The position numbers were made by a program, and so were the translations under genes. From Opitutia bacterium Tous-C8FEB (lineage in GTDB: Bacteria; Verrucomicrobiota; Verrucomicrobiia; Opitutales; Opitutaceae): 44,805 bases of DNA. The number at the start of each line of letters is the position of its first letter. Position 1 is the first letter of the stretch. The stretch lies in NCBI GenBank assembly GCA_002304435.1, contig NEUZ01000008.1, positions 1 through 44,805 on the forward strand, in the 5' to 3' direction. Positions 30,548 through 44,388 of this stretch are shown piece after piece. The notes under the pieces are model-generated. The model did no database searches. It was not told the origin of the DNA and saw nothing but the letters and a program-made list of their open reading frames with translations.

Positions 30548-31630
30548 ATGCCCACTCCCGCTGCCTCCCCTTCCCCTACTCAGCTTGGATTCGCGATGCC
30601 CGCCGAATGGGAGCGGCACGAGGCCACCTGGCTCGGCTGGCCCCATCACCCGAGCGACTGGCCCGACAAGCTCTCCACCATCCACTGGGTCTACGGCGAG
30701 ATGGTGCGTAAGCTCACCGCGGGGGAAATCGTCCGCATAATGGTCAATGACCGCCGCGAGGAACGCCAGGCCCGCCGGGTGCTGAGCCGCGCGCACGTCG
30801 ACCTTAAGCGGGTCGAGTTCGTCCTCCACCGCACCAACCGCGGATGGACCCGGGACAGCGGCCCCATCTTCGTGCAGCGGTCCCGCGGCCGCGGGCGCGA
30901 GACCGCGATCGTGCACTTCCACTTCAACGCGTGGGCGAAGTACCGGGACTGGCAGCACGACCGCCGGGTGCCGGAGATCGCAGCCCGCCGGCTAGGCCAA
31001 ACCCTATTTGAGGCGATCCGCGACGACGGCCGCCCCTTCGTGCTCGAGGGCGGCGGGATTGACGTGAACGGACGCGGTACCCTCCTCACCACCGAGGAGT
31101 GCTACCTCCACCCCAAGGTGCAGGTGCGCAACCCCGGCGTCGGCCGCGCGGAGTTCGAGCGGGTGGTGAAGGCGAACCTCGGTGTGACCAACGTTTTCTG
31201 GCTCGGCGACGGGCTCGTCGGCGATGACACCCACGGCCACGTCGACGACCTGTGCCGCTTCGTGAACCCGCGCACGGTGGTGCTGATCCGCGAGAACAAC
31301 CGCCGGGACGTGAACTACCGACCGCTCGCCGAGAACTGGGAACGCATCCGCGACCTGCGGCTGGAAGACGGCTCCAAGCCCGAGGTGGTCGCCCTGCCGA
31401 TGCCCGGGCCGCAAATCTTCGACGGGATGCGGCTGCCGGCGAGCTACGCTAACTTCTATATCGGGAATGCGTTTGTCCTCGTCCCCACGTTCAACGACCC
31501 GAACGACCGGATCGCGCTCGGGACGCTCGCGGAGCTGTTCCCGGACCGGAAGGTGGTCGGCATCCACGCCGCCGACCTCGTGCTCGGCTTCGGCACCCTG
31601 CACTGCCTGACGCAGCAGCAACCGGCTTGA
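30548..31630 (+). CDS. aguA: Agmatine deiminase
   Basis: [69 protein letters not shown], terminal Cys motif [14 protein letters not shown]. Confidence 0.93.
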
Positions 31631-31670: not shown

Positions 31671-31718
31671 GCGCGCAACCTCATCGTGCCGGACAGCGTC
31701 TCGCTGCGCCAGCACCCC

Positions 31719-33638
31719 ATGACCCTCCCCGCCCTCGTCCGTCCCGCCCTGCAGTTCATCCTGCTCGCCCTGCCCGCGCTCGCCGCGGACCGGCCGAACA
31801 TCCTCTGGCTGACCAGCGAGGACCACGGGGTCGAGATGGGCTGCTACGGCGACCAGTTGGCGCGGACGCCCAACGTCGACGCGCTCGCGGGCAAGGGGAT
31901 GATCTTCCGCCGGGCGTGGTCCGTGCATCCCGTGTGCGCCCCGGCGCGCACCGCGATCATCTCGGGCCTCTACGCGCAGAGCAGCGGCGGGCTGCATATG
32001 CGCTCGATGGTCACGCTGGGGGCCGGCCAGCGGATGTATCCCCAGTTCCTGCGCGAGGCGGGCTACTACGCGACCAATAACAGCAAGGAGGACTATAATC
32101 TCCGCAAGCCCGAGGGCGTCTGGGATGACTCCTCGGGGCAGGCCCACTGGCGCAACCGCCCCGCAGGGCGGCCGTTCTTCGCCATCTTCAACTCGACCAA
32201 GAGCCACGAGAGTCAGATCCGGACGCGGCCGCATCAGGCGATCACCGACCCGGCGAAAGTGCGCGTGCCCGCCTACCACCCGGACACCCCCGAGGTGCGG
32301 CAGGACTGGGCACAGTACTACGACAAGGTCAGCGAGGCCGACGCCGACGCGGGCGCGCGCCTGCGCGAACTGGAGGCGGCGGGGCTCGCCGAGGACACGA
32401 TCGTGTTCTATTACGGCGATCACGGAAGCGGGATGCCGCGTAGCAAGCGCTGGCCCTCGAATTCCGGCCTCCACGTGCCGATGGTCGTCTATTTCCCGCC
32501 CAAGTGGCGGCAGCTCGCGCCAAAGGAATACCAGCCGGGCGGGCGCTCGGACCGGCTCGTGAGCTTCGTCGACCTCGCGCCGACCGTGCTGAGCCTCGCG
32601 GGCGTCAAACCGCCCGCCTGGATGCAGGGGCACGCCTTCGCCGGACCGCATCAGGTCGCGGGCCCAGCGTTCCTCCACGGCGCGCGCGGGCGGATGGACG
32701 AGCGGATGGACGCGGTGCGGAGCGTCACGGACGGCCGCTACGTCTACCTGCGCAACTTCCACCCGCACGTCTCCCAGGGGCAACGCGTGGACTTCCAGTT
32801 CCAGACCCCGACGACCCGCATCTGGCGCGCCCGCTTCGACGCCGGTCAGGCCACCGAGGCGCAATCCCTGTTCTGGCGGACGCCGAAGGCGCCGGAAGAG
32901 CTCTATGACCTGCAGAACGATCCCGACGAGGTGCGGAACCTCGCGGGGTCGGCGGCCCACCGGGCCAACCTCGAACGCCTGCGCGCGGAGATGCGCGGCC
33001 AAGCCGAACGCGTGCGCGACCTCGGCTTCCTGCCGGAGGGCGAGATCCACAGCCGCGCCACCGGGACCAACCCTTATGACATGGCACGCGACGAGGCGCG
33101 ATTCCCGTTCGGCCGCATCTACGCCGCGGCGGACCTCGCCTCGGGCCTTGATCCGGCCGCCACCCCGCGGCTGGTGGAGTTGCTCGCGGACGGCGACTCG
33201 GCAGTGCGGCACTGGGCCGCGCTCGGCCTGCTGATGCGGGGGACGGCCGCGGTCAACGCCGCCGTCGTTCCCCTCCGCGAGGCGCTCCGCGACGGCTCCC
33301 GGCTGGTGCGCGTCGTGGCCGCCCAGGCGCTTGCGCAGGATGGCCCCCCGGCGGAATTGGCGGGCGCCCTCGCCGCGCTCCGCGAACTGCTCCCTCCCGC
33401 CCAGAACGGGTTCTTCGTCTCCACGTCCGCCCTCGCCGCCGTCGAGGCGCTCGGCGCCAAGGCCGCCCCGCTGCACGAGGTGGTGCGCACGATGAACCCA
33501 CAAGGTCCCTCCCCAGACGCGCGCTACGAATCGTACATTCCACGCCAGATCGCCAATCTCACGGGCGACCCCGCCGCCGCCCCCGAAGGTGAAGGCGCGC
33601 GCAAGTCCAAGGCCCGCCGCAAGAACTCCAAGGACTGA
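31719..33638 (+). CDS. Sulfatase with C-terminal HEAT-like extension
   Basis: DRPNILWLTSEDHGVEMGCYGDQLARTPNVDALAGKG; formylglycine motif VCAPARTAIISG (CxPxR); C-terminal helical repeats AVVPLREALRDGSRLVRVVAAQALAQDG. Confidence 0.92.
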   Translation: MTLPALVRPALQFILLALPALAADRPNILWLTSEDHGVEMGCYGDQLARTPNVDALAGKGMIFRRAWSVHPVCAPARTAIISGLYAQSSGGLHMRSMVTLGAGQRMYPQFLREAGYYATNNSKEDYNLRKPEGVWDDSSGQAHWRNRPAGRPFFAIFNSTKSHESQIRTRPHQAITDPAKVRVPAYHPDTPEVRQDWAQYYDKVSEADADAGARLRELEAAGLAEDTIVFYYGDHGSGMPRSKRWPSNSGLHVPMVVYFPPKWRQLAPKEYQPGGRSDRLVSFVDLAPTVLSLAGVKPPAWMQGHAFAGPHQVAGPAFLHGARGRMDERMDAVRSVTDGRYVYLRNFHPHVSQGQRVDFQFQTPTTRIWRARFDAGQATEAQSLFWRTPKAPEELYDLQNDPDEVRNLAGSAAHRANLERLRAEMRGQAERVRDLGFLPEGEIHSRATGTNPYDMARDEARFPFGRIYAAADLASGLDPAATPRLVELLADGDSAVRHWAALGLLMRGTAAVNAAVVPLREALRDGSRLVRVVAAQALAQDGPPAELAGALAALRELLPPAQNGFFVSTSALAAVEALGAKAAPLHEVVRTMNPQGPSPDARYESYIPRQIANLTGDPAAAPEGEGARKSKARRKNSKD

Positions 33639-33651
33639 ACTCGACCTCCCG

Positions 33652-35124
33652 ATGCGCCTCCTCCTCTCCCTTGCCCTGTCCGCCACCCTCGCCGCATCCG
33701 CCGCCGAGCGTCCGGCCAAGCCCAACGTACTGTTCTTCGCCGTCGACGACCTTCGACCCGAATTCGGGGCGTACGGTGCGAGGTACGTGCACAGCCCCAA
33801 CCTGGATCGTCTGGCCCGCTCGGGAGTGACCTTCACGCGGGCCTATTGCCAACAGGCCGTCTGTTCGCCGTCCCGCACGGTCGTGATGACGGGCACCCGC
33901 CCCGACACCAGCAAGGTCTGGGACCTCGAGACCCACTTCCGCAAGGCGTTGCCCGATGTCGTGACGGTCGGCCAGCACTTCAAGCAGCACGGCTACTTCG
34001 TGCAGGGGATGGGCAAGATCTTTCACGGGGGCTTTGACGATGCGCCCACCTGGTCCGTGCCGTGGCAGACCCCGCGGGCCAGCGGGGCCTACGCGCGCCC
34101 CGAGAATATCGCCCTGACGCAACGGGCGCCGGCGGCAGCCGCGCCCGGCGATCGGAAGGCCGCGCGGAAGGCGGCGAAGGGACCCCGCGGGCCAGCGTTC
34201 GAGTCGGCGGACGTTCCCGACAATTATTACACCGACGGGCGCACGGCGGATCTCGCGGTCGAGACCCTGCGCGAGCTCGGCAAAAAGGGAGCCCCGTTCT
34301 TCCTCGCCGTCGGCTTCGCCAAGCCGCACCTGCCCTTCGTGGCACCCAAGAAGTACTGGGATCTCTACGATCCCGCGAAGATCACGCTCGCGCCCAACCG
34401 CTTCCGGCCCCGCGGCGCTCCCGAGTACGCGATCCTTCCTGGCGGGGAGTTGCGCTCCTACCACGGGATTCCCGAGGGCCCGATCCCCGATGATCTCGCC
34501 CGCCAGCTCAAGCACGGCTACTATGCCGCGATCAGTTACATCGATGCGCAGCTCGGCCGCGTGCTCGACGAGCTCGAACGCTCTGGCTTGAGCCAGAACA
34601 CGATGATCGTCCTTTGGGGCGACCACGGCTGGAAGCTCGGGGAGCACGATGCCTGGTGCAAACACTCCAACTCTGAGAACGACACCAACGCCCCACTCCT
34701 GCTCTCCGCCCCGTGGCTGGGGACGGCCGGCGCCAAGTCGCGGGCGCTGGTGGAGTTCGTCGACATCTATCCGACCCTCGCCGACCTCGCCGGCTTACCG
34801 CTGCCCGGCCACCTCGAGGGCCTGAGCTTCAAACCCGTCCTAGAACAACCCGATCGCGCGTGGAAGACCGCCGCCTTCAGCCAGTATCCACGAGCGAATG
34901 GCGGCCGCAATCTGATGGGCTACTCGATGCGGACCGATCGGCACCGCTTTACCGTCTGGGTCGAGCGGGGGAACTCTGCGAAGGTTGAGGCCGTCGAGCT
35001 CTACGATCACCAAGCCGACCCGCAGGAGAACCAGAACCTAGCGGCCGAGCCCGGGCAGCAGCCGCTCGTCGAACGCCTGCTGACGCAGTGGCGGGCCGGC
35101 TGGCGAGGCGCCCTCCCCCGCTAA
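33652..35124 (+). CDS. Sulfatase (iduronate-2-sulfatase-like)
   Basis: Signal-like N-terminus; KPNVLFFAVDDLRPEFGAYGARYVHSPNLDRLARSG; formylglycine motif VCSPSRTVVMTG. Confidence 0.93.
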   Translation: MRLLLSLALSATLAASAAERPAKPNVLFFAVDDLRPEFGAYGARYVHSPNLDRLARSGVTFTRAYCQQAVCSPSRTVVMTGTRPDTSKVWDLETHFRKALPDVVTVGQHFKQHGYFVQGMGKIFHGGFDDAPTWSVPWQTPRASGAYARPENIALTQRAPAAAAPGDRKAARKAAKGPRGPAFESADVPDNYYTDGRTADLAVETLRELGKKGAPFFLAVGFAKPHLPFVAPKKYWDLYDPAKITLAPNRFRPRGAPEYAILPGGELRSYHGIPEGPIPDDLARQLKHGYYAAISYIDAQLGRVLDELERSGLSQNTMIVLWGDHGWKLGEHDAWCKHSNSENDTNAPLLLSAPWLGTAGAKSRALVEFVDIYPTLADLAGLPLPGHLEGLSFKPVLEQPDRAWKTAAFSQYPRANGGRNLMGYSMRTDRHRFTVWVERGNSAKVEAVELYDHQADPQENQNLAAEPGQQPLVERLLTQWRAGWRGALPR

Positions 35125-35134
35125 GGACTTACCG

Positions 35135-36568
35135 ATGTACCGCCTCCTGCGCCTGCTTCCGCTCGGCTTGCTCCTTGCCTCCGGCTGGGCGGCGGCGCCG
35201 TCCCGGCCCAACGTGCTGCTGGTCGTCGTCGACGACCTCAACACCCTGCTCGGCGCCTACGGCCACGGGCACGTCCAATCCCCAGCGTTCGACCGCCTCG
35301 CGGCGCGAGGCGCCCGCTTCGATCGCGCGTACGCCCAGTACCCGCTCTGCAACCCGAGCCGCGTGTCCTTCCTGAGCGGACGCCGGCCAGAGACCAGCGG
35401 GGTTTACATCCTCGGCACCCCGGCGCGGACCGCGCTGCCGGATGCAGTGCTGTTGCCGGAGCACTTCCGCCGCCAAGGCTACTACACGGCCGGCGTGGGC
35501 AAGATCTTCCACAATGTACGCACCAGCGATCCCGCCGCGTGGGATCACTACGAGGATGGCGCGGGTGAAGACCCGGAGGAGAAGGCGGCGATCGAGTCGC
35601 GCTACGGCGGCGGCGACGGCCGGCCCCGCGCGCACGTCCTGAGCTCGGACGGCTCGCGCACGCGCGACGGACTCAACGCCCGCACCATTCGCCGTCTCCT
35701 GGGGGAGCGCGCGGCCGCGGGCGGATCCTTCTTCCTCGCCCTCGGCTTCCACAAACCACACCTCCCTTGGACGGCGCCCCGCCGGTTCTTCGATCTTTAC
35801 TCTCCGGCCCGCCTTCCAGTCCCCGCCGAGTCCCCGCTGCGCGAAGTGCCGCCCATCGCGTTGCAAACGGAGTTGACCGGATTCGCTCAGCCCGACTCCC
35901 GCGCTGCCGCGATCCAGGGCTACCTCGCCTGCGTCTCGTTCATCGACGAACAGTTGGGCCTGGTCCTCGATGAATTGGACCGCCTGAAACTCACGGAGCA
36001 CACCCTCGTGGTGCTGTTCAGCGATCACGGCTTCCACCTCGGTGACCACGGGGGACTGTGGGCGAAACTCACGGCCTTTGACGCGTCCACCCGCGTGCCA
36101 CTCCTCGCCGCGGGCCCCGGCATTCCCCGCGGTACGGTTGTTTCCACCCCGGTCGAACTGCTCGATGTCTACCCCACACTGGTAGACCTCGCCGGCCTGC
36201 CGAAGCCAGCGGGCCTCGAGGGCCGCTCCCTGCGACCGCTCCTCGCCCATCCCGGCGCCACGGGGCACGCCCACAGCCTCGTCTACCACTACGACGTCGG
36301 TCGCCGGCGCGACGTGGCGGGCCGCACCGTAATCGGGCCCCGGTGGCGCTACACCGAATGGGGCGGCGGCGAATTCGGCCGCGAGCTTTACTGGCGGCCG
36401 GACGACCCGGAGGAGTACCACAACCGGATCGCCGATCCCGCCCTCGCCTCCACGCTGGCAGAGGCCCGCGCCCAGCTGGCAAAGCTACCGGCGCCCAAAC
36501 CCGGCCCCGCCAACCGCCCGCGCGCGATCGACCCCGACGCCAAGCAGCCGAAGCAGAAGCGGAATTGA
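35135..36568 (+). CDS. Sulfatase (iduronate-2-sulfatase-like)
   Basis: Signal-like N-terminus; RPNVLLVVVDDLNTLLGAYGHGHVQSPAFDRLAARG; formylglycine motif LCNPSRVSFLSG. Confidence 0.93.
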   Translation: MYRLLRLLPLGLLLASGWAAAPSRPNVLLVVVDDLNTLLGAYGHGHVQSPAFDRLAARGARFDRAYAQYPLCNPSRVSFLSGRRPETSGVYILGTPARTALPDAVLLPEHFRRQGYYTAGVGKIFHNVRTSDPAAWDHYEDGAGEDPEEKAAIESRYGGGDGRPRAHVLSSDGSRTRDGLNARTIRRLLGERAAAGGSFFLALGFHKPHLPWTAPRRFFDLYSPARLPVPAESPLREVPPIALQTELTGFAQPDSRAAAIQGYLACVSFIDEQLGLVLDELDRLKLTEHTLVVLFSDHGFHLGDHGGLWAKLTAFDASTRVPLLAAGPGIPRGTVVSTPVELLDVYPTLVDLAGLPKPAGLEGRSLRPLLAHPGATGHAHSLVYHYDVGRRRDVAGRTVIGPRWRYTEWGGGEFGRELYWRPDDPEEYHNRIADPALASTLAEARAQLAKLPAPKPGPANRPRAIDPDAKQPKQKRN

Positions 36569-36584
36569 CGGCCCGTCAGGGCCG
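36569..36584. terminator. Compact bidirectional hairpin between convergent genes
   Basis: CGGCCC-GTCA-GGGCCG, perfect 6-bp stem, directly after the sulfatase stop and containing the stop of the minus-strand metallohydrolase. Confidence 0.55.
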
Positions 36585-37910
36585 GGCGCCAACGACGGGC
36601 TGCACCCAAGCCGTCTCCCATTCGCCGGGCACGCTGCCGTCCGCCTTGGGCTTGGAGGAGATCACCTTCGCGCGGACGTAGAGTTCGTCCCCCTTCAGTC
36701 GATATTCGGCACGCGGGCCGGTGTTCTCCGCGAGGACGGTCCCGACCTCCGGGCTGTAACGGCGGTGATTGAGGGTCCGGCGGGCTGGCTTCTCGTCGGC
36801 GGGAGCAGACATCTCCTCGCTGCGGCGGTCGAAACCGCGCCGGGTGCCGATGAACTGGATACGGTAGGACACGCCCGCCTCCGGCTCTACCTCGACGGCG
36901 AGCCGCCCCGGTTCGCGCACCACCTCCCTGAGGGTCACCCCCGAAGTGCCGTAGAAATCACCCGCCTCCAGCGCGCGAATCAGCGACTCCGCAGTCAGGT
37001 GCCGGGCCCGCACCATCACCCAGCCGCGCCCAGAACTGCTCCGTCCAGGACCGACCTTGTGGTAGTGGTGCGAATCATCCGTGGCCACGCCGTAGACCAC
37101 GCCGAAGTTCAGCTCGGAAAGGCGGAACGCGAGGATCGCATCCCACATCCCATCCATACTGAGCCGGGTGGCGTCACCCGCGTTCTCTACGCCGGGATGG
37201 CCATTGTAGACCTCGAAGAACCGGAGCCGCTCGACGCGCATCATCTCCTCGGCGGTCACACCCCAGCGGAAGTTCGGGTGGTTGAGGTGGGCGAACATCG
37301 GCTGGCCGGTGCGCGCGCGCTGGGCATCGACCGCCTCAAGGGTGCGCTGCATCACGGTCACCGCGTCCGCGGCGTTGACCGCGGGAACGAGGTCACGGGG
37401 ATTGGTCACGTTGATGTGGACCGGACCGGTGAGCGCGGGAGCCGTATCGGACTTCGGCCGCGTCCAAGCGCCGGTGATTTCCTCTGCGGGGATGAGCAGG
37501 AACTTACCGGGTTCGTTGAGCAGCGGCGCGAACTCCGCTAGCGGCTTCAGCCGCACCTCGCGGCGACCTGCGTTCTCCCGCAGCTCCACCCAATCGGGCC
37601 CGAAGCGCCGCAGATACTTCTGCAGAACCTCTCCGCCGCCGCGCTGCACCACTTCGCCCTTCAGGGAAACAGGGGCCTTCAACTCGAACCAGCGAGTACC
37701 CTCGGAGAGGATGTTGTGGTCCGACAGTGCGAGGAAGTGATAGCCGGCGCGCTTGTACCAGTCGGCGATCATTTCCGGATAGTCATCCCCGTCGCTCCAC
37801 AGCGAGTGGGTATGGGTGTTGCCCTTGTACCAGCGGGGCGCCTCGCCTGCAGGGGCGGCGGCGAACAGGGACGGGAGCAGGAGGGGAAGCAGGAGCAGGG
37901 GAATGCGCAT
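36576..37910 (-). CDS. CehA/McbA-type PHP-domain metallohydrolase, secreted
   Basis: MRIPLLLLPLLLPSLFAAA signal; WYKGNTHTHSLWSDGDDYPEMIADWYKRAGYHFLALSDHN; ATDDSHHYH. Confidence 0.85.
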   Translation of the reverse strand: MRIPLLLLPLLLPSLFAAAPAGEAPRWYKGNTHTHSLWSDGDDYPEMIADWYKRAGYHFLALSDHNILSEGTRWFELKAPVSLKGEVVQRGGGEVLQKYLRRFGPDWVELRENAGRREVRLKPLAEFAPLLNEPGKFLLIPAEEITGAWTRPKSDTAPALTGPVHINVTNPRDLVPAVNAADAVTVMQRTLEAVDAQRARTGQPMFAHLNHPNFRWGVTAEEMMRVERLRFFEVYNGHPGVENAGDATRLSMDGMWDAILAFRLSELNFGVVYGVATDDSHHYHKVGPGRSSSGRGWVMVRARHLTAESLIRALEAGDFYGTSGVTLREVVREPGRLAVEVEPEAGVSYRIQFIGTRRGFDRRSEEMSAPADEKPARRTLNHRRYSPEVGTVLAENTGPRAEYRLKGDELYVRAKVISSKPKADGSVPGEWETAWVQPVVGARP

Positions 37911-38025: not shown

Positions 38026-38490
38026 GTGCCGTCCGATCCGCTCGCCCTACGTGCCCAGCGATGGTGCGCCCGGCTGCTGGGTGCGGCGTTGGTCGGCCTA
38101 ATGCTCCTGATCGCCGCGGGCGAGGGCCTCCCGCGCGCGGCCCAGTTGGGCACCCGCGAATGGATCCTGTTCGCGGCGTTGGCTGCGATCGCCGCCGGAC
38201 ATTTGGGGCTTTGGCTCCGCGTCGGTGTGGGGGCGACGTTCGGACTCGCCGGCTACGCGCTCTTCCTCGGGGTTCAGGGCAACCCGCTGTCCCCGCGTCT
38301 CGCCTTCATCCACCTCCTAGCGCTGCCCTCCGTGCTTGCGCTGGCCGCCGCCCTCGGGTCCCGTGTCAAGCGAAACGCCGGATCCGGTCCCGCACGTCCG
38401 ACTGCAGCCGCGCCAGGTAGCCCAGCGTGTAATCCTCCGGGGACAACGCGGGATCCTGGACGAGCGGGGTCAGATCCATCGCCCAAGTGA
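38026..38490 (+). CDS. Small hydrophobic membrane protein, hypothetical; 3' end overlaps the convergent PIG-L gene
   Basis: Hydrophobic segments LLGAALVGLMLLIAAGE, WILFAALAAIAAGHLGLWL, ATFGLAGYALFLGV, LALPSVLALAAALG. GTG start; last ~125 bp antisense to PIG-L. Confidence 0.5.
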   Translation: MPSDPLALRAQRWCARLLGAALVGLMLLIAAGEGLPRAAQLGTREWILFAALAAIAAGHLGLWLRVGVGATFGLAGYALFLGVQGNPLSPRLAFIHLLALPSVLALAAALGSRVKRNAGSGPARPTAAAPGSPACNPPGTTRDPGRAGSDPSPK

Positions 38491-39217
38491 TGCCGGCCAT
38501 CTGGTCCGTCGCGTGCGAGGTGTGGAACGTCGCGTGCGCCTGCCGGCGGCCGATGGTGGCGAGATCGTAGCGCTTGCCGCCGGCGACCTGGGAATCGAAG
38601 ACCTTGAGCAGGTCGAGGGCGAGGGCGGGATGACGGCCTGCGTCCAAGGCGACCTTGTCGGCATCGACCAGCCAGTCGAGGTCGCGCCAGACCTCGCAGC
38701 CGAGCACGCGTCGGGGCCGGCGGGCGGGAGGCAGGCGGCGGAGCGCCTCTAGGCAGCGCAGGAAGACCGCGACGTGGGTGTCGTGCTTGTCGGCCGGGTT
38801 GTGCAAGTAGACCACCTGCGCCGAACAGCCCCCGAAGATCAGATCTAGGTCCGCCGCGACCCCGGGGTGCCCGGGCGCTTTGACCACGCCGCTCGGGTGA
38901 GCAAGCTGGAGTTGGATCGCGTAGCGCCCCAAACGCGCGGCGGCGCGCTGCTCCTCGCGCCGCACCCCCTGCATCTGGGCGTCATCGAGGTGGGCATAGG
39001 GACCGGTACGCGGGGAGCCCGCCCCGTTGGTCACCACGACACCGCCGAAAGCAAGGCTCGGCTGCTCAAGGCAATCGCTGATGCCCGCGTGGGCCATGAT
39101 CTCGATGTCGTCCTGATGCGCGCCGAGACAGAGGTGCGTGACCCGGCCGAGCGCGGCCTCAGCGCTCGGGTCCGGGGCGGAAAACAGGATATCGGCCTCT
39201 GGTTGGTAGAGTTTCAT
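38366..39217 (-). CDS. PIG-L family deacetylase (intact metal motifs)
   Basis: CLGAHQDDIEIMAHAG and YLHNPADKHDTHVAVFLRC match PIG-L/LmbE metal-binding motifs. Confidence 0.9.
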   Translation of the reverse strand: MKLYQPEADILFSAPDPSAEAALGRVTHLCLGAHQDDIEIMAHAGISDCLEQPSLAFGGVVVTNGAGSPRTGPYAHLDDAQMQGVRREEQRAAARLGRYAIQLQLAHPSGVVKAPGHPGVAADLDLIFGGCSAQVVYLHNPADKHDTHVAVFLRCLEALRRLPPARRPRRVLGCEVWRDLDWLVDADKVALDAGRHPALALDLLKVFDSQVAGGKRYDLATIGRRQAHATFHTSHATDQMAGITWAMDLTPLVQDPALSPEDYTLGYLARLQSDVRDRIRRFA

Positions 39218-39225
39218 GGCAGGGG

Positions 39226-40623
39226 TCAGGCGGGACGGAGAGCAGGCAGACTCGCGGCGGCGATGGCCTGGCCGTGGCGCTTGTCCTTCTCGTCCGGGGT
39301 GTGCAGGCGGACCCGCGCGGCGAGTTCCGGGAAGTCAGCGCGGAGCACCTCGCGGGCGCGCTGCAACAGCAGGTCGCCGCCGGCGCCAGAGGTCACGCGA
39401 CCCAGCACAAGGAGGTGGCGCAGGGCGTAGAAGTCGGCGTAGTGAGCGATCGCGTAGCCGAAGGAGGCGCCGATCGACTCGTAGATCCGGGCGGCGCGCG
39501 CGTCCCCGGCCGCCATCGCCTCCTGCACCCGGATCAACTGTTCCGGCAGGGGCAGACCCCGGGGAATCTCCAGTCCGGCCAAGGGGGCCAGGCGGCCCAC
39601 CGCCTGCTGCGAGAAGTACTGCACGCCGCAGCCGGCGTCCCCGGACCACTCGTCCCGCGGGGCATCCGGGTGGTAGTCGACCGGCGCGAAGGCCAGCTCG
39701 TTCAGCCACGGGGTGATGCCGCCGGAGGGCGTCACGTAGCCCGCGGCGAGGCTCGTGCCCATCGCGATGCCCAGCACAGCACCGTCGCCGAGGCTCATCG
39801 AGCCGGCGAGCGCCGTGACCTCGCCGTCGTTGGCAACCTCGAAAGGCACGCCGCCCCACCGCTCCTGGAGCGTGAAGAACATCCGGCGGACCCGCGCGTC
39901 GAAGGCCGCGGGGGGCACGCCCCGGAACAGGGAGGCGACCCGCACCTCGTTGTTCACGTAGATCCCGGCGGCGCTGCCGCCGATCGCGTCCACCCGCGGC
40001 AAGTGACGGGCCGCCCGCGTGAGGGAGTCGTGGATGCCTTCAAGATGATAGGCGGGATCCTGTTGGAAATAGGGATCCCAGGCGATCTCCTCGGAGTAGA
40101 CGACCTTGCCGTCGATAACCGCGGCGGCTTTGCGGTCACTGCCCCCGAGGTCAAAACCGATCCGACACCCGTCAAGGTGGCGACCCACCGGCAAGGCGGC
40201 GACAGCCTCCGCGGGCAATTCAGCGAGGGGACAGGCCTCGACCCGGAACGCGGCCCGGTAGGTGCGTTCGCCCATGAAGGCGTGGTCGAAGGCCCGCGCC
40301 CCGCCCGGCGCGTACACCGAAGCCAGGTGGCGAGCGACTTCGTCGGCGCCGCCCACGGAGACGTGGCAGCCCCCCCGCTGCCAAAGGAGGAATTTCAGCA
40401 GGCGCTCGGCGTAAACCAGGGTCAACGCCGCGTGCGGGTGTCCCGCGCCGAGCACGCGGCTGTCGTGCCGAGAGACCCCGCCGCCCGGGGAGCGGAGCAC
40501 CAGCGCGAGGGGCCGGGAGCCGGGATCCGCGGCGACCAGCGCGCCGTAGGCGCGGTTCCAGAGGGCGGCCGGGACGAAGTCCCGTTCGAGGCACGGCCGC
40601 AGGGAGGGAGCCAGAGTGAGCAT
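39226..40623 (-). CDS. ROK-family protein (sugar kinase-like) with ~150-aa N-terminal extension
   Basis: CRIGFDLGGSDRKAAAVIDGKVV, VANDGEVTALAGSMSLGDGAVLGIAMGTSLAAGYV, LNELAFAPVD. Confidence 0.85.
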   Translation of the reverse strand: MLTLAPSLRPCLERDFVPAALWNRAYGALVAADPGSRPLALVLRSPGGGVSRHDSRVLGAGHPHAALTLVYAERLLKFLLWQRGGCHVSVGGADEVARHLASVYAPGGARAFDHAFMGERTYRAAFRVEACPLAELPAEAVAALPVGRHLDGCRIGFDLGGSDRKAAAVIDGKVVYSEEIAWDPYFQQDPAYHLEGIHDSLTRAARHLPRVDAIGGSAAGIYVNNEVRVASLFRGVPPAAFDARVRRMFFTLQERWGGVPFEVANDGEVTALAGSMSLGDGAVLGIAMGTSLAAGYVTPSGGITPWLNELAFAPVDYHPDAPRDEWSGDAGCGVQYFSQQAVGRLAPLAGLEIPRGLPLPEQLIRVQEAMAAGDARAARIYESIGASFGYAIAHYADFYALRHLLVLGRVTSGAGGDLLLQRAREVLRADFPELAARVRLHTPDEKDKRHGQAIAAASLPALRPA

Positions 40624-40634
40624 CGGAGCCGCGA

Positions 40635-43600
40635 TCAGTCGAGGCGCGCGCGGGAGAAGCCCTCAAGGGCCTCATAGTCGGCCAACCCGAGCTTGTCGTA
40701 ATTGGCCGCGAGGGCACGGTTCTGCTGCTCCGCCTGCTGCCAGGGCTCCCTTAGCCCAGCGGCAACGGGAGTCTGGCTGCGTTGGGACTTGTGGTGGAAC
40801 ACGACTTGGATCTTTTGCGCCAGCTCGCGCGGGCTCAACGGCACCGCCATCTCGATCTCGGCCGCCTCCCAGGGCTGCTCAACCCCGCGGTAAGCCCAGA
40901 CCCGGCAGTCTTTGGCCCACGGCTCGCCGGCTACCTGCCCCCACGCCTGCCGAACCAATTGGAAACCGACCGCAGTGATCGACGAAGGGTCATCTCGTTC
41001 GCCCGTGAGGAATATCTGGTTTGGCGTCAGGTCGCGCAGCAGCGCGGCCACCGCCGCCACGTCCTCCGCGTCGGGCGCGAACTGGCGGTAGCGCCCGCGC
41101 TCGTAGAACCCGAGGTCGAGGAAGCGGGCTTGGCTTGGGGCGTAACCGCAATCCCGCAACGAGGCGCGCGCCTCGCCGCGGCGCAACAGCCCCTTGAGCC
41201 GGCGAATTGACGCCGAATCCGCGGCGAAGGCCGCCTTCTCGAGGAGTTCCTTGCGGGTGGTCCGCGCAAATTCCGCCACTGGCCCCTCCGAACGCGCGAG
41301 GGTCTCCGCAATGTCGCCCACGAGGTCCGCCGCCATCACCGCCTCCTCATCCGGCACGGCGAGGTTGCCGGAGGTGAGGTAGACGACCGTGACGTCGTGC
41401 CCCTGATCCTTGAGCCGCCGGAGCGTGCCTCCCATCCCCAGCACGTCGTGGGAGGGCTCTGGGCTGAAGACCACCACTCGCTTCGGGAACGGCAGGGCCC
41501 GCTCCGGGCGGGAGCTGTCGTCCGCGTTGGGCTTGCCGCCGGGCCAGCCGGTGATCGTGCGCTGGATCTCGTTGAAGATCCTGATGTTCAACCCGTAGCT
41601 TGGGCCCTGCTCGGTGAGGAGATCCGCCATCCCGTGTTCACTGTAATCCTCATCCAACAACTTAAGCACCGGTTTTCCAACCGTCTGCGAGAGCCACATC
41701 ACGGCGCGGCGGGCGAGCGCGGGGCTCCACACGACCGGGGTGACCAGCCAGGGGTGGCGGACACGGGTGAGGCCGGAGGCGGCGGCCTCATCGAGCAGAA
41801 AACGGACCTGGGGGTGCCCCTGCAGAAAGCTGGCCGGCAGGGCGTCGGACGGCGGGGCCTCGACGGCGGCGGCGACGACGGCGGCCTTGGACTCGCCCCA
41901 CGCGAGCAACACGATGCGGCGCGCGTCCAGGATGGTGCCGACACCCATCGTGATCGCGTGACGGGGCACGTTGGCCTCGCCGAGGAAGTCGCGGGCCGCA
42001 TCGCGCCGGGTGAGACCGTCGAGGGTGACGAGGCGGGTGCGCGATTCCCGGCTGGAGCCAGGCTCGTTGAAGCCGATGTGGCCGGTGCGGCCGATACCGA
42101 GCACCTGCAGGTCGAGGCCGCCCGCGGCGCGGATGCGCTCCTCGTAGCGCCGGCACCACCCGAACACCTCACCGCGCGGGACCGTGCCGTCGGGGACGTT
42201 CACGTTGGTCGCCGGGATGTCGAGGTGGTTAAAGAGCTGCTCGTGCATGAAGCGCCAGTAGCTCTCCGGATGCTCGCGGGGGAGCCCGTAGTATTCATCG
42301 AGGTTGAAGGTGATGACGTTGCGGAAGCTCAGGCCGTCCTCGCGGTGCAGCCGGATTAGCTGCCGGTAGAGCCGGACCGGGGTGGAACCCGTGGCCAAAC
42401 CGAGCACCGTAGGCTTGCCCGCGCGGTCGTGGGCGCGGATCAGGTCGGCGATCTCGCCCGCCAGCCGGGCGCAGGCGTCGTCGGCCCCCGGAAAAATCTC
42501 GGTGACGATGCGCTCGCGCTGCTGGGACTCGCTGGAGGTGGGGATCATGGGAGCTGAAACGGTGGCGGCGGAGCTGCGGCGCGCGCGGGCGGCGAGGCGG
42601 CGGACGGCAGCCTCCATCGCTTCGCGCTGGTCCTCAAGACTCCGCACCAGGGCGAACTGGCTGCGGGCCCGGTCAAGGTTTTGGCCCTCGCGATGGATGC
42701 GGAAGTAGGCGTCGCCCTCGAGGTGATCGGTGAGGAAGCGCATCCCGATCTCAAGGGCGATCAGGCGGCCCGCGAACGCGAGTTGCCCGATCTCGGCCTC
42801 GTTCAGCAATCCGCCCGTACCCGCGAGGTAGCCCTCGACCAGCGCCTCGAAGATCTCCGGCCGCGCGCGAACCTTGGCCAGATCGCGCTCGTCCTCCGGC
42901 GCAGCATTCGTCGCCGAACGCACCAGATCCCCGAAATCGTAGAGCGCCAGCCCCGGCATTACGGTGTCGAGGTCGATGACGCAGAGCCCGGCACCAGTCC
43001 GGTCGTCGATCAGGACGTTGTTCAGTTTGGTGTCGTTGTGGGTGACGCGTTCGGGCAGCTCACCCCGGGCGTGCAGGTCGAGTAGTTGGTCGACCATCCG
43101 CTCGCGCGCGCGCACAAAGGCCAGTTCGGCGGCAACCCCCGCCGCCCGACCCCGCCGATCCTCGGCGGCGGCGCGCATTAGGGCATCAAACCGACGCCTA
43201 GTATGGTGGAAGTCCGGAATCGTTTCCCGGAGGCGCTCCCCCGGCAGGTCGCCGAGCATCCGCTGGAACTCCCCGTACGCGCGGGCCGCCTCCCGCGCCA
43301 TCTCCGGGCCCCGGATGACGTCGTGCGACGTCGCGTCCCCGATGAACACGTAACAGCGCCAAGCGCCGGTCGCGTCCCGCAGCAGGTTTTCCCCGCCCCG
43401 GGTCGGGATCAGCGTGAGGACGCGCCGCTGCGGGTCTGGCACCCCGGCGGCAAGCGCCCGCCGCCCGGCGTGGGCCGTGACGCGCGCGACGTTCGCCATC
43501 ACGGCGTCCACATCGCGGAAGACGTGCTCGTTGATGCGCTGCAGGATGTAGCGGGTCGAAACGCCGGCCTGCTCGAAGGTGACCGCGAAGGTGTCGTTGA

Positions 43601-43712
43601 TGTGCCCGTTGCCGTGGGGCGCCCCGCCACAGTAGGTGCCGCCGAGCCGGAAGGCGGCGGCGACCGAGCGCAAGGCGGCGGCGTCGATGGTCACGGAGGA
43701 CATCCGTACCAT
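40635..43712 (-). CDS. Fusion: APH-type (N-acetylhexosamine kinase-like) domain :: glucosamine-6-phosphate deaminase (NagB) :: PIG-L-like domain
   Basis: Kinase: THNDTKLNNVLID...VIDLDTVMPGLALYDFGD. NagB: VLGLATGSTPVRLYRQL, FNLDEYYGLPREHPESYWRFMHEQLF, GIGRTGHIGFNEPGSS. PIG-L-like: VVVFSPEPSHDVLGMGGTLRRLKDQGHDVTVVYLTSGN. One uninterrupted frame; likely ATG 43712 or 43703. Confidence 0.85.
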   Translation of the reverse strand: MVRMSSVTIDAAALRSVAAAFRLGGTYCGGAPHGNGHINDTFAVTFEQAGVSTRYILQRINEHVFRDVDAVMANVARVTAHAGRRALAAGVPDPQRRVLTLIPTRGGENLLRDATGAWRCYVFIGDATSHDVIRGPEMAREAARAYGEFQRMLGDLPGERLRETIPDFHHTRRRFDALMRAAAEDRRGRAAGVAAELAFVRARERMVDQLLDLHARGELPERVTHNDTKLNNVLIDDRTGAGLCVIDLDTVMPGLALYDFGDLVRSATNAAPEDERDLAKVRARPEIFEALVEGYLAGTGGLLNEAEIGQLAFAGRLIALEIGMRFLTDHLEGDAYFRIHREGQNLDRARSQFALVRSLEDQREAMEAAVRRLAARARRSSAATVSAPMIPTSSESQQRERIVTEIFPGADDACARLAGEIADLIRAHDRAGKPTVLGLATGSTPVRLYRQLIRLHREDGLSFRNVITFNLDEYYGLPREHPESYWRFMHEQLFNHLDIPATNVNVPDGTVPRGEVFGWCRRYEERIRAAGGLDLQVLGIGRTGHIGFNEPGSSRESRTRLVTLDGLTRRDAARDFLGEANVPRHAITMGVGTILDARRIVLLAWGESKAAVVAAAVEAPPSDALPASFLQGHPQVRFLLDEAAASGLTRVRHPWLVTPVVWSPALARRAVMWLSQTVGKPVLKLLDEDYSEHGMADLLTEQGPSYGLNIRIFNEIQRTITGWPGGKPNADDSSRPERALPFPKRVVVFSPEPSHDVLGMGGTLRRLKDQGHDVTVVYLTSGNLAVPDEEAVMAADLVGDIAETLARSEGPVAEFARTTRKELLEKAAFAADSASIRRLKGLLRRGEARASLRDCGYAPSQARFLDLGFYERGRYRQFAPDAEDVAAVAALLRDLTPNQIFLTGERDDPSSITAVGFQLVRQAWGQVAGEPWAKDCRVWAYRGVEQPWEAAEIEMAVPLSPRELAQKIQVVFHHKSQRSQTPVAAGLREPWQQAEQQNRALAANYDKLGLADYEALEGFSRARLD

Positions 43713-43752: not shown

Positions 43753-44388
43753 TCAGGCCGCCAGCGCGTGGCACGCCAGGAACAGCTCCTCGTCGTCGAG
43801 CGCTGGCACGCGGGCAAGCTGCGAGCGGACCGCGGGTTCCCAGAGCGACGCCCGGAGGGGGGCGAGCAAGCGCGGCGGCAGGTCCGGCTCGGCCACCCGG
43901 CGTAGGATCGCAAGCGCCTGGCGGCTGGCCGGCAGGCCCAGCCATTGCAGGAGCCCGAAGGCGCCATCCCGCCCGTGCACCGCCGAGATCTCCGCCCATG
44001 CCGCGGCGCCGCCACCCCGCAGCTCGGGGTGCGCCGCGAGAAAGCACGCAAGCACCGGCGTCTGGTGTAGTTCCGGAATCAGGTCCGGGCACCGCAGGGC
44101 CACCAGCAGCGCCGCCATCCGGCCGTGCGTGTACCGTTGCAGCAATCCCCGCACCTCCGGTGGGACGAACTCCAGGAACCGCCGCCAGGCCGCTCCGCCC
44201 ACCCCGAGGGCCGCTGAGGCCAACGCCCCGGGAGAAGGGTCCTCCGCGTCCCAGCGCCCCGGGATCACCTCACGGTGGAACGTCGCCTCAGGCCAAGCGG
44301 TCACGCGGTGGCGGTAACCATCGTGAATCCAATTCAGGGAACCAGGAGCGATATCGGGGCCGGAAGCGCGGCGGGGGGAGTTCATCAT
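43753..44388 (-). CDS. Hypothetical protein, first gene of the amino-sugar operon
   Basis: 211-aa ORF 40 bp upstream of the fusion gene, same strand; no family recognised by eye. Confidence 0.6.
   Translation of the reverse strand: MMNSPRRASGPDIAPGSLNWIHDGYRHRVTAWPEATFHREVIPGRWDAEDPSPGALASAALGVGGAAWRRFLEFVPPEVRGLLQRYTHGRMAALLVALRCPDLIPELHQTPVLACFLAAHPELRGGGAAAWAEISAVHGRDGAFGLLQWLGLPASRQALAILRRVAEPDLPPRLLAPLRASLWEPAVRSQLARVPALDDEELFLACHALAA

Follow-up and report, generated by a model that had tools for sequence, protein, structure and literature searches.

Glucosamine-6-phosphate deaminase (NagB) acts on a 6-phosphate substrate, converting GlcN-6-P to Fru-6-P. The N-acetylhexosamine 1-kinases (NahK) phosphorylate O1 (PMC8106489), and the GalNAc kinase BT4240 of Bacteroides thetaiotaomicron gave only the 1-phosphate, its modelled active site precluding phosphorylation of O6, although B. 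theta needs this kinase to grow on GalNAc (PMC11992087). No prokaryotic enzyme converting GlcNAc-1-P to GlcNAc-6-P has been described (PMC9599254). LmbE-like (PIG-L) enzymes use an HXD1D2 motif together with a distant His as their catalytic and metal site (PMC4101496). Here we describe a gene in which these three families meet, and which bears on the question of how bacteria with NahK-type kinases route the 1-phosphate to central metabolism (cf. PMC11992087; PMC9599254).

The window, by which we mean the whole stretch of 44,805 nucleotides analysed, is an entire contig of the draft genome of Opitutia bacterium Tous-C8FEB, which is 70% complete and in 96 contigs. Its minus strand carries one gene (Table 1) that encodes NahK, NagB and a tail of the PIG-L fold in a single frame of 1025 amino acids plus stop, with zero internal stops. 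Pfam places the domains in the order APH (residues 32-276, E 2e-19), Glucosamine_iso (410-632, 4e-21) and PIG-L (748-908, 4e-08), and residues 389-1022 match positions 16-650 of the 653 in the NCBIfam profile PRK02122 (NagB::PIG-L) with 808.1 bits against a cut-off of 384. An earlier note, made from the sequence letters, had proposed a three-domain fusion in one frame, leaving the strand unstated, and the domain order and the open frame bear this out; its further statements that HNDTKLNN and DFGD motifs are present, that an in-frame ATG lies at 42548 (residue 389), that NagB::PIG-L is a known unit (a full-model match to PRK02122) and that the kinase is a stand-alone protein elsewhere were likewise correct. 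The chain is a new domain architecture built from known families, the function of which we infer below.

Table 1. Features of the fused gene and its neighbours, in window coordinates.
Feature	Position	Strand	Basis or remark
nahK::nagB::PIG-L-like fused gene, 1025 aa	40635..43712	-	alternative start ATG at 43703
N-acetylhexosamine 1-kinase (APH fold) part, residues 12-376	42585..43679	-	phmmer, Foldseek
Linker, residues 377-394, with putative relic NagB start ATG at 42548	42531..42584	-	pLDDT, dN/dS
NagB glucosamine-6-phosphate deaminase part, residues 395-655	41748..42530	-	TIGR00502, 1cd5, 2bkv
PIG-L/LmbE-fold part, residues 741-1022, catalytic site lost	40647..41492	-	Pfam PF02585, PRK02122
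Position of HXDD metal/catalytic motif, here E752-P-S754-H755	41448..41459	-	alignment to family
Position of third metal ligand His, here T913	40974..40976	-	alignment to family
ROK-fold sugar kinase-like protein, 465 aa, next downstream, 11-nt gap	39226..40623	-	predicted structure
Stand-alone PIG-L protein, intact AHQDD and HDTH	38366..39217	-	PF02585 1.5e-9
Three sulfatases, CxPxR active-site motifs	31686-33638, 33589-35124, 35135-36568	+	motifs, SGSH-type C-termini

The kinase part resembles the N-acetylhexosamine 1-kinases of Bifidobacterium (4ocu, 4ocj and 4wh1; phmmer E about 1e-77), and its AlphaFold2 model (mean pLDDT 88) superposes on 4wh2 with a TM-score of 0.95 over the target and an rmsd of 1.8 (Foldseek). 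The catalytic motifs HNDTKLNN, DLDT and DFGD are present, and their positions are invariant in nine fused species except for T228 and L230. By similarity in sequence and predicted fold across the full kinase, this part belongs to the NahK family; by analogy with NahK and BT4240, at about 40% identity, it would phosphorylate GlcNAc/GalNAc at O1. The NagB part exceeds the cut-off of TIGR00502 (265.7 against 236.9 bits) and has the E. coli and B. subtilis enzymes as its best matches (1cd5, E 1e-60; 2bkv, E 2e-58). What we take to be the active-site residues of NagB, Asp72, His143 and Glu148 in E. coli numbering, correspond to D472, H545 and E550, which are invariant in the fused proteins. Asp141 of the E. 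coli enzyme is replaced by Thr543; B. subtilis NagB (2bkv) carries Asn there, so that Asp141 is not universal in the family, and the idea that this replacement inactivates NagB was dropped. Judged from these residues, deaminase activity is likely but not certain.

The tail matches PF02585 with 34.2 bits against a cut-off of 28.2, so that the PIG-L/LmbE-like assignment of the earlier note stands as far as family is concerned; all four of the catalytic/metal positions are replaced (Glu752, Ser754, His755 and Thr913), leaving no residue of the HXDD+H set, and the PIG-L part is predicted to be catalytically dead. Among 47 aligned NagB::PIG-L proteins the full motif is kept in five (Balneola twice, Mucilaginibacter, G029 and G031) and gone in the other 42, with loss of HXDD and loss of the far His occurring together. 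A loss so widespread indicates that it predates the fusion. The domain evolves as slowly as the other parts, which suggests that the tail probably has a non-catalytic role; a deacetylase fold would thus have persisted over about 280 residues after the loss of its entire catalytic site.

The same uninterrupted three-part gene is present in nine species of one Opitutaceae genus, the window species included, and the eight other proteins are 95, 95, 94, 94, 80, 79, 75 and 70% identical to the window protein; in a tenth genome (G021) the 3′ part alone is found, at a contig end. The earlier note had considered that close relatives might encode two genes with a conserved stop at this junction; instead, these eight close relatives are also fused. 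Within the kinase, NagB and PIG-L parts dN/dS is about 0.03-0.10 in close pairs (Nei-Gojobori), dS being near saturation for more distant ones, and all three parts are under purifying selection. Outside the genus, none of the genomes covered for the family (252) or for the phylum (388) has the complete fusion, and the best 80 matches in a scan of 84,980 species include only two of the same nine fused species and no other fusion, in keeping with the earlier remark that the architecture was not a recognised one; fusions in distant or unsampled genomes may lie beyond these 80 matches. Fusions of NagB with LmbE or of NahK with NagB were not found in the open-access literature. Open-frame lengths hinted at another, independently formed NahK::NagB fusion in families f42 and f35, where the two turned out to be separate genes with a stop, and the frames of 1022 aa in G031 and 1596 aa in G343 have no kinase part and represent upstream read-through only.

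All nine fused proteins make up a single clade in the tree of the kinase part (99/94). The tree of the NagB::PIG-L part groups eight of them (100/99) and does not resolve that of G019; without the distant rows it unites all nine, though only weakly (59/66, not significant), so that a single origin is compatible with this half and is not shown by it. Unfused relatives indicate what the fusion replaced. G002 belongs to the same genus, and there the kinase gene ends in TGA and nagB has its own ATG about 60 nt further on; G130 has a similar arrangement of separate neighbours, and nahK and nagB::PIG-L are likewise separate neighbour genes in Mucilaginibacter. In G265, G266, G162, G242, G243 and a Rariglobus MAG, nahK and nagB are separated by a gene of roughly 1 kb; that of G266 is a GalE-type NAD-dependent epimerase (Pfam, NCBIfam), and the proteins of G242 and G243 are clearly similar, the former also being read as an epimerase. 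Apart from the incomplete window genome, the fused genomes contain only distant epimerases, at about 40%. A sugar-1-phosphate nucleotidyltransferase-like gene stands ahead of nahK in several unfused loci, and a homologue with 65-72% identity is found elsewhere in the fused genomes, with the exception of the incomplete window genome.

Since unfused relatives keep the two genes apart, often adjacent with a stop and in several cases with an epimerase between them, a single fusion event in one Opitutaceae genus is most likely, brought about by loss of what separated two operon genes. The ancestral operon may have been that of the relatives, namely nucleotidyltransferase, nahK, GalE-type epimerase, nagB::pigL, ROK and PIG-L, and the simplest reading would be that the epimerase was lost from it first and the stop afterwards. 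As separate observations, the GalE-type epimerase between nahK and nagB::pigL was seen at four unfused Opitutaceae loci (L138, L139, L141 and L142), two of which, L138 and L139, have the nucleotidyltransferase-like gene before nahK; the stretch upstream of the nucleotidyltransferase in G266 and G265 is a dispersed repeat that shares the gene's reading frame, with more than 100 short matches to it in G266 (query L139:9721-10899, residues about 20-90).

In another class of the phylum, nahK and nagB are neighbours in seven genomes, six of which have two kinase genes before nagB. These pairs, together with that of Mucilaginibacter, indicate that the association of the two activities extends beyond the fusion. 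At six loci of the other class (L167, L168, L169, L170, L171 and L172) a tandem duplicated nahK directly precedes nagB, and at some of them the genes lie in the same frame with a single stop codon between them.

Downstream of the fusion, the ROK-fold protein has no Pfam, NCBIfam or PDB sequence match. Its model (pLDDT 75) matches the ROK glucokinase 2qm1 (E 1.8e-13, with a TM-score of only about 0.45 over the query), as well as the GlcNAc kinase 4db3 and ManNAc kinases, and it is a probable, uncharacterised sugar kinase of the amino-sugar locus. Its family is conserved, at 60-95% identity, in 13 other loci. The stand-alone PIG-L protein that follows has intact HQDD and HDTH motifs in 16/16 loci compared. 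The pair is found downstream in eight of the nine fused loci and also follows unfused nagB::pigL in several other genera; it is absent near the fusion in G019, so these genes are not always its partners. The sulfatase trio is retained in the same glycan locus of close relatives, and because sulfatases and amino-sugar genes share the locus, it looks like one for the use of sulfated amino-sugar glycans.

Other genes of the region are listed here for completeness. A CehA/McbA-like metallohydrolase, below the model cut-off (36576-37910, -), lies beside the sulfatases in a block conserved in close relatives, and an agmatine deiminase-like gene (30548-31630, +; PF04371 E 4e-108) scores under both NCBIfam agmatine deiminase cut-offs. 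Between the fusion and a divergent regulator is a 211-aa protein of no known family (43753-44388, -), which shows 89-96% conservation among the four nearest fused relatives and was not seen at the other loci compared. The divergent gene is the start of an HTH/WYL-type protein cut by the contig end (44453-44805, +) and a candidate regulator of the locus; its full-length relative at L133 has HTH_11, WYL and WCX domains. Matches to the nagA family were present in 16/16 genomes and also in 14/14 controls, mostly as sub-cut-off amidohydrolases, so that this family does not serve as a marker of the pathway.

The earlier note had read the fusion as placing phosphorylation and deamination of amino sugars on one chain. 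Taken as successive steps, this does not agree with the chemistry of the two families, as characterised members of the NahK family make a 1-phosphate and NagB uses a 6-phosphate; the kinase and NagB therefore probably do not catalyse successive steps. The fusion links two amino-sugar steps without any known reaction directly connecting them. Since the product of a 1-kinase is not a substrate of NagB and no prokaryotic enzyme leading from the 1- to the 6-phosphate has been described (PMC9599254), we favour a cytosolic branch-point enzyme with two activities in the use of GlcNAc/GalNAc, which as a whole explanation we give an even chance of being correct. The N-terminal part would phosphorylate HexNAc at O1, with HexNAc-1-P going to the UDP-sugar pool, and the middle part would deaminate GlcN-6-P to Fru-6-P for glycolysis. 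The tail, which would bind no metal, may serve NagB as a structural or ligand-sensing module, as in unfused relatives. GlcN-6-P would be supplied by the downstream genes, with the intact PIG-L protein deacetylating GlcNAc and the ROK-fold kinase then phosphorylating GlcN at O6. The tether would thus hold salvage and breakdown, the two ways out of a single HexNAc pool, in a constant ratio of 1:1 and would not link successive steps.

The main rival, possible but with clearly less in its favour, is a near-neutral fusion in which co-transcribed, co-regulated genes lost a stop with no change in how either half works and no benefit from the tether. The linker between them is fast-changing and predicted to be disordered: pLDDT is 29-43 around residues 381-398, and over about residues 373-394 dN/dS is mostly 0.2-0.86 and identity 18-86%. 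With a pTM of only 0.62, the relative placement of the domains is not fixed by the model. Such a flexible connection would suit a tether of no consequence, as would the single origin in one genus and the fact that the parts function unfused in all other lineages. However, no re-split was seen among nine species that have diverged to 70% identity, and G019 keeps the fusion though the surrounding operon is gone.

Doubtful, in our view, is an undescribed route that directly couples the metabolism of HexNAc-1-phosphate and GlcN-6-phosphate, for example through an unknown 1-to-6 phosphate step, or through a PIG-L-derived tail that senses HexNAc-1-P and gates NagB. If such a route did exist, NahK would supply catabolism besides UDP-sugar salvage. 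Less likely is direct channelling by a kinase whose specificity has shifted to O6 of GlcN/GlcNAc and which, with NagB, would form a short channel leading from the amino sugar to Fru-6-P. Enzymes of successive steps are often found fused, and the nahK and nagB neighbours across the phylum and in Mucilaginibacter argue for linked metabolites, but the close superposition on NahK with signature motifs kept, the exclusive 1-phosphate product of BT4240 with its modelled site precluding O6 (PMC11992087), and the presence in the operon of a ROK-fold kinase, the usual O6 class, make this reading unlikely.

Production of a separate NagB::PIG-L protein beside the full-length one, which the earlier note had raised, is highly improbable. 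The ATG at the former NagB start is retained in seven of the nine fused species, but it is absent in G023, where the sole alternative is a GTG one codon ahead of the conserved ESQQRER block, and in G012, where none of the 22 codons upstream is a start codon. Production of a separate protein is therefore unlikely to be conserved, and the ATG is best read as a relic start codon. No Shine-Dalgarno-like sequence was seen at the internal ATG, but the other starts have none either, so that its absence says little. An assembly or sequencing error masking a stop, such as a draft of this completeness and contig number might contain, is ruled out by the agreement of nine separately assembled genomes, whose synonymous divergence runs from 0.3 to above 1.

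The branch-point reading can be set against the known systems part by part. The kinase has about 40% identity to NahK/LnpB of Bifidobacterium longum (PDB 4OCV, 4WH1) over its whole length, with the same fold and motifs; known NahK/LnpB and BT4240 are stand-alone proteins, whereas here the kinase is joined to NagB::PIG-L. Residues 389-1022 match the entire model NF002557 (PRK02122, 'glucosamine-6-phosphate deaminase-like'), to which the fused protein adds the N-terminal kinase, and its PIG-L catalytic site is replaced, unlike in the NagB::PIG-L members from Balneola, Mucilaginibacter and G029/G031. With the LmbE-like/PIG-L deacetylases MshB, BshB and diacetylchitobiose deacetylase the tail shares the PF02585 match, and a weak sequence match to the last of these, whereas none of their HXD1D2+H residues is retained. 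At the level of the locus, the unfused Opitutaceae arrangements with an epimerase resemble the bifidobacterial NahK-GalE logic with NagB added. The adjacent nahK and nagB genes of the other class (G312, G286, G328 and others) and of Opitutaceae place the same two activities on one strand, but as separate genes with a stop, and in the other class the NagB lacks PIG-L. Together, such gene pairs in several lineages and the NahK::NagB chain are direct evidence, at the level of genomes, that these two activities go together, and the chain offers one purifiable protein in which the 1-phosphate question posed by BT4240 can be tested.
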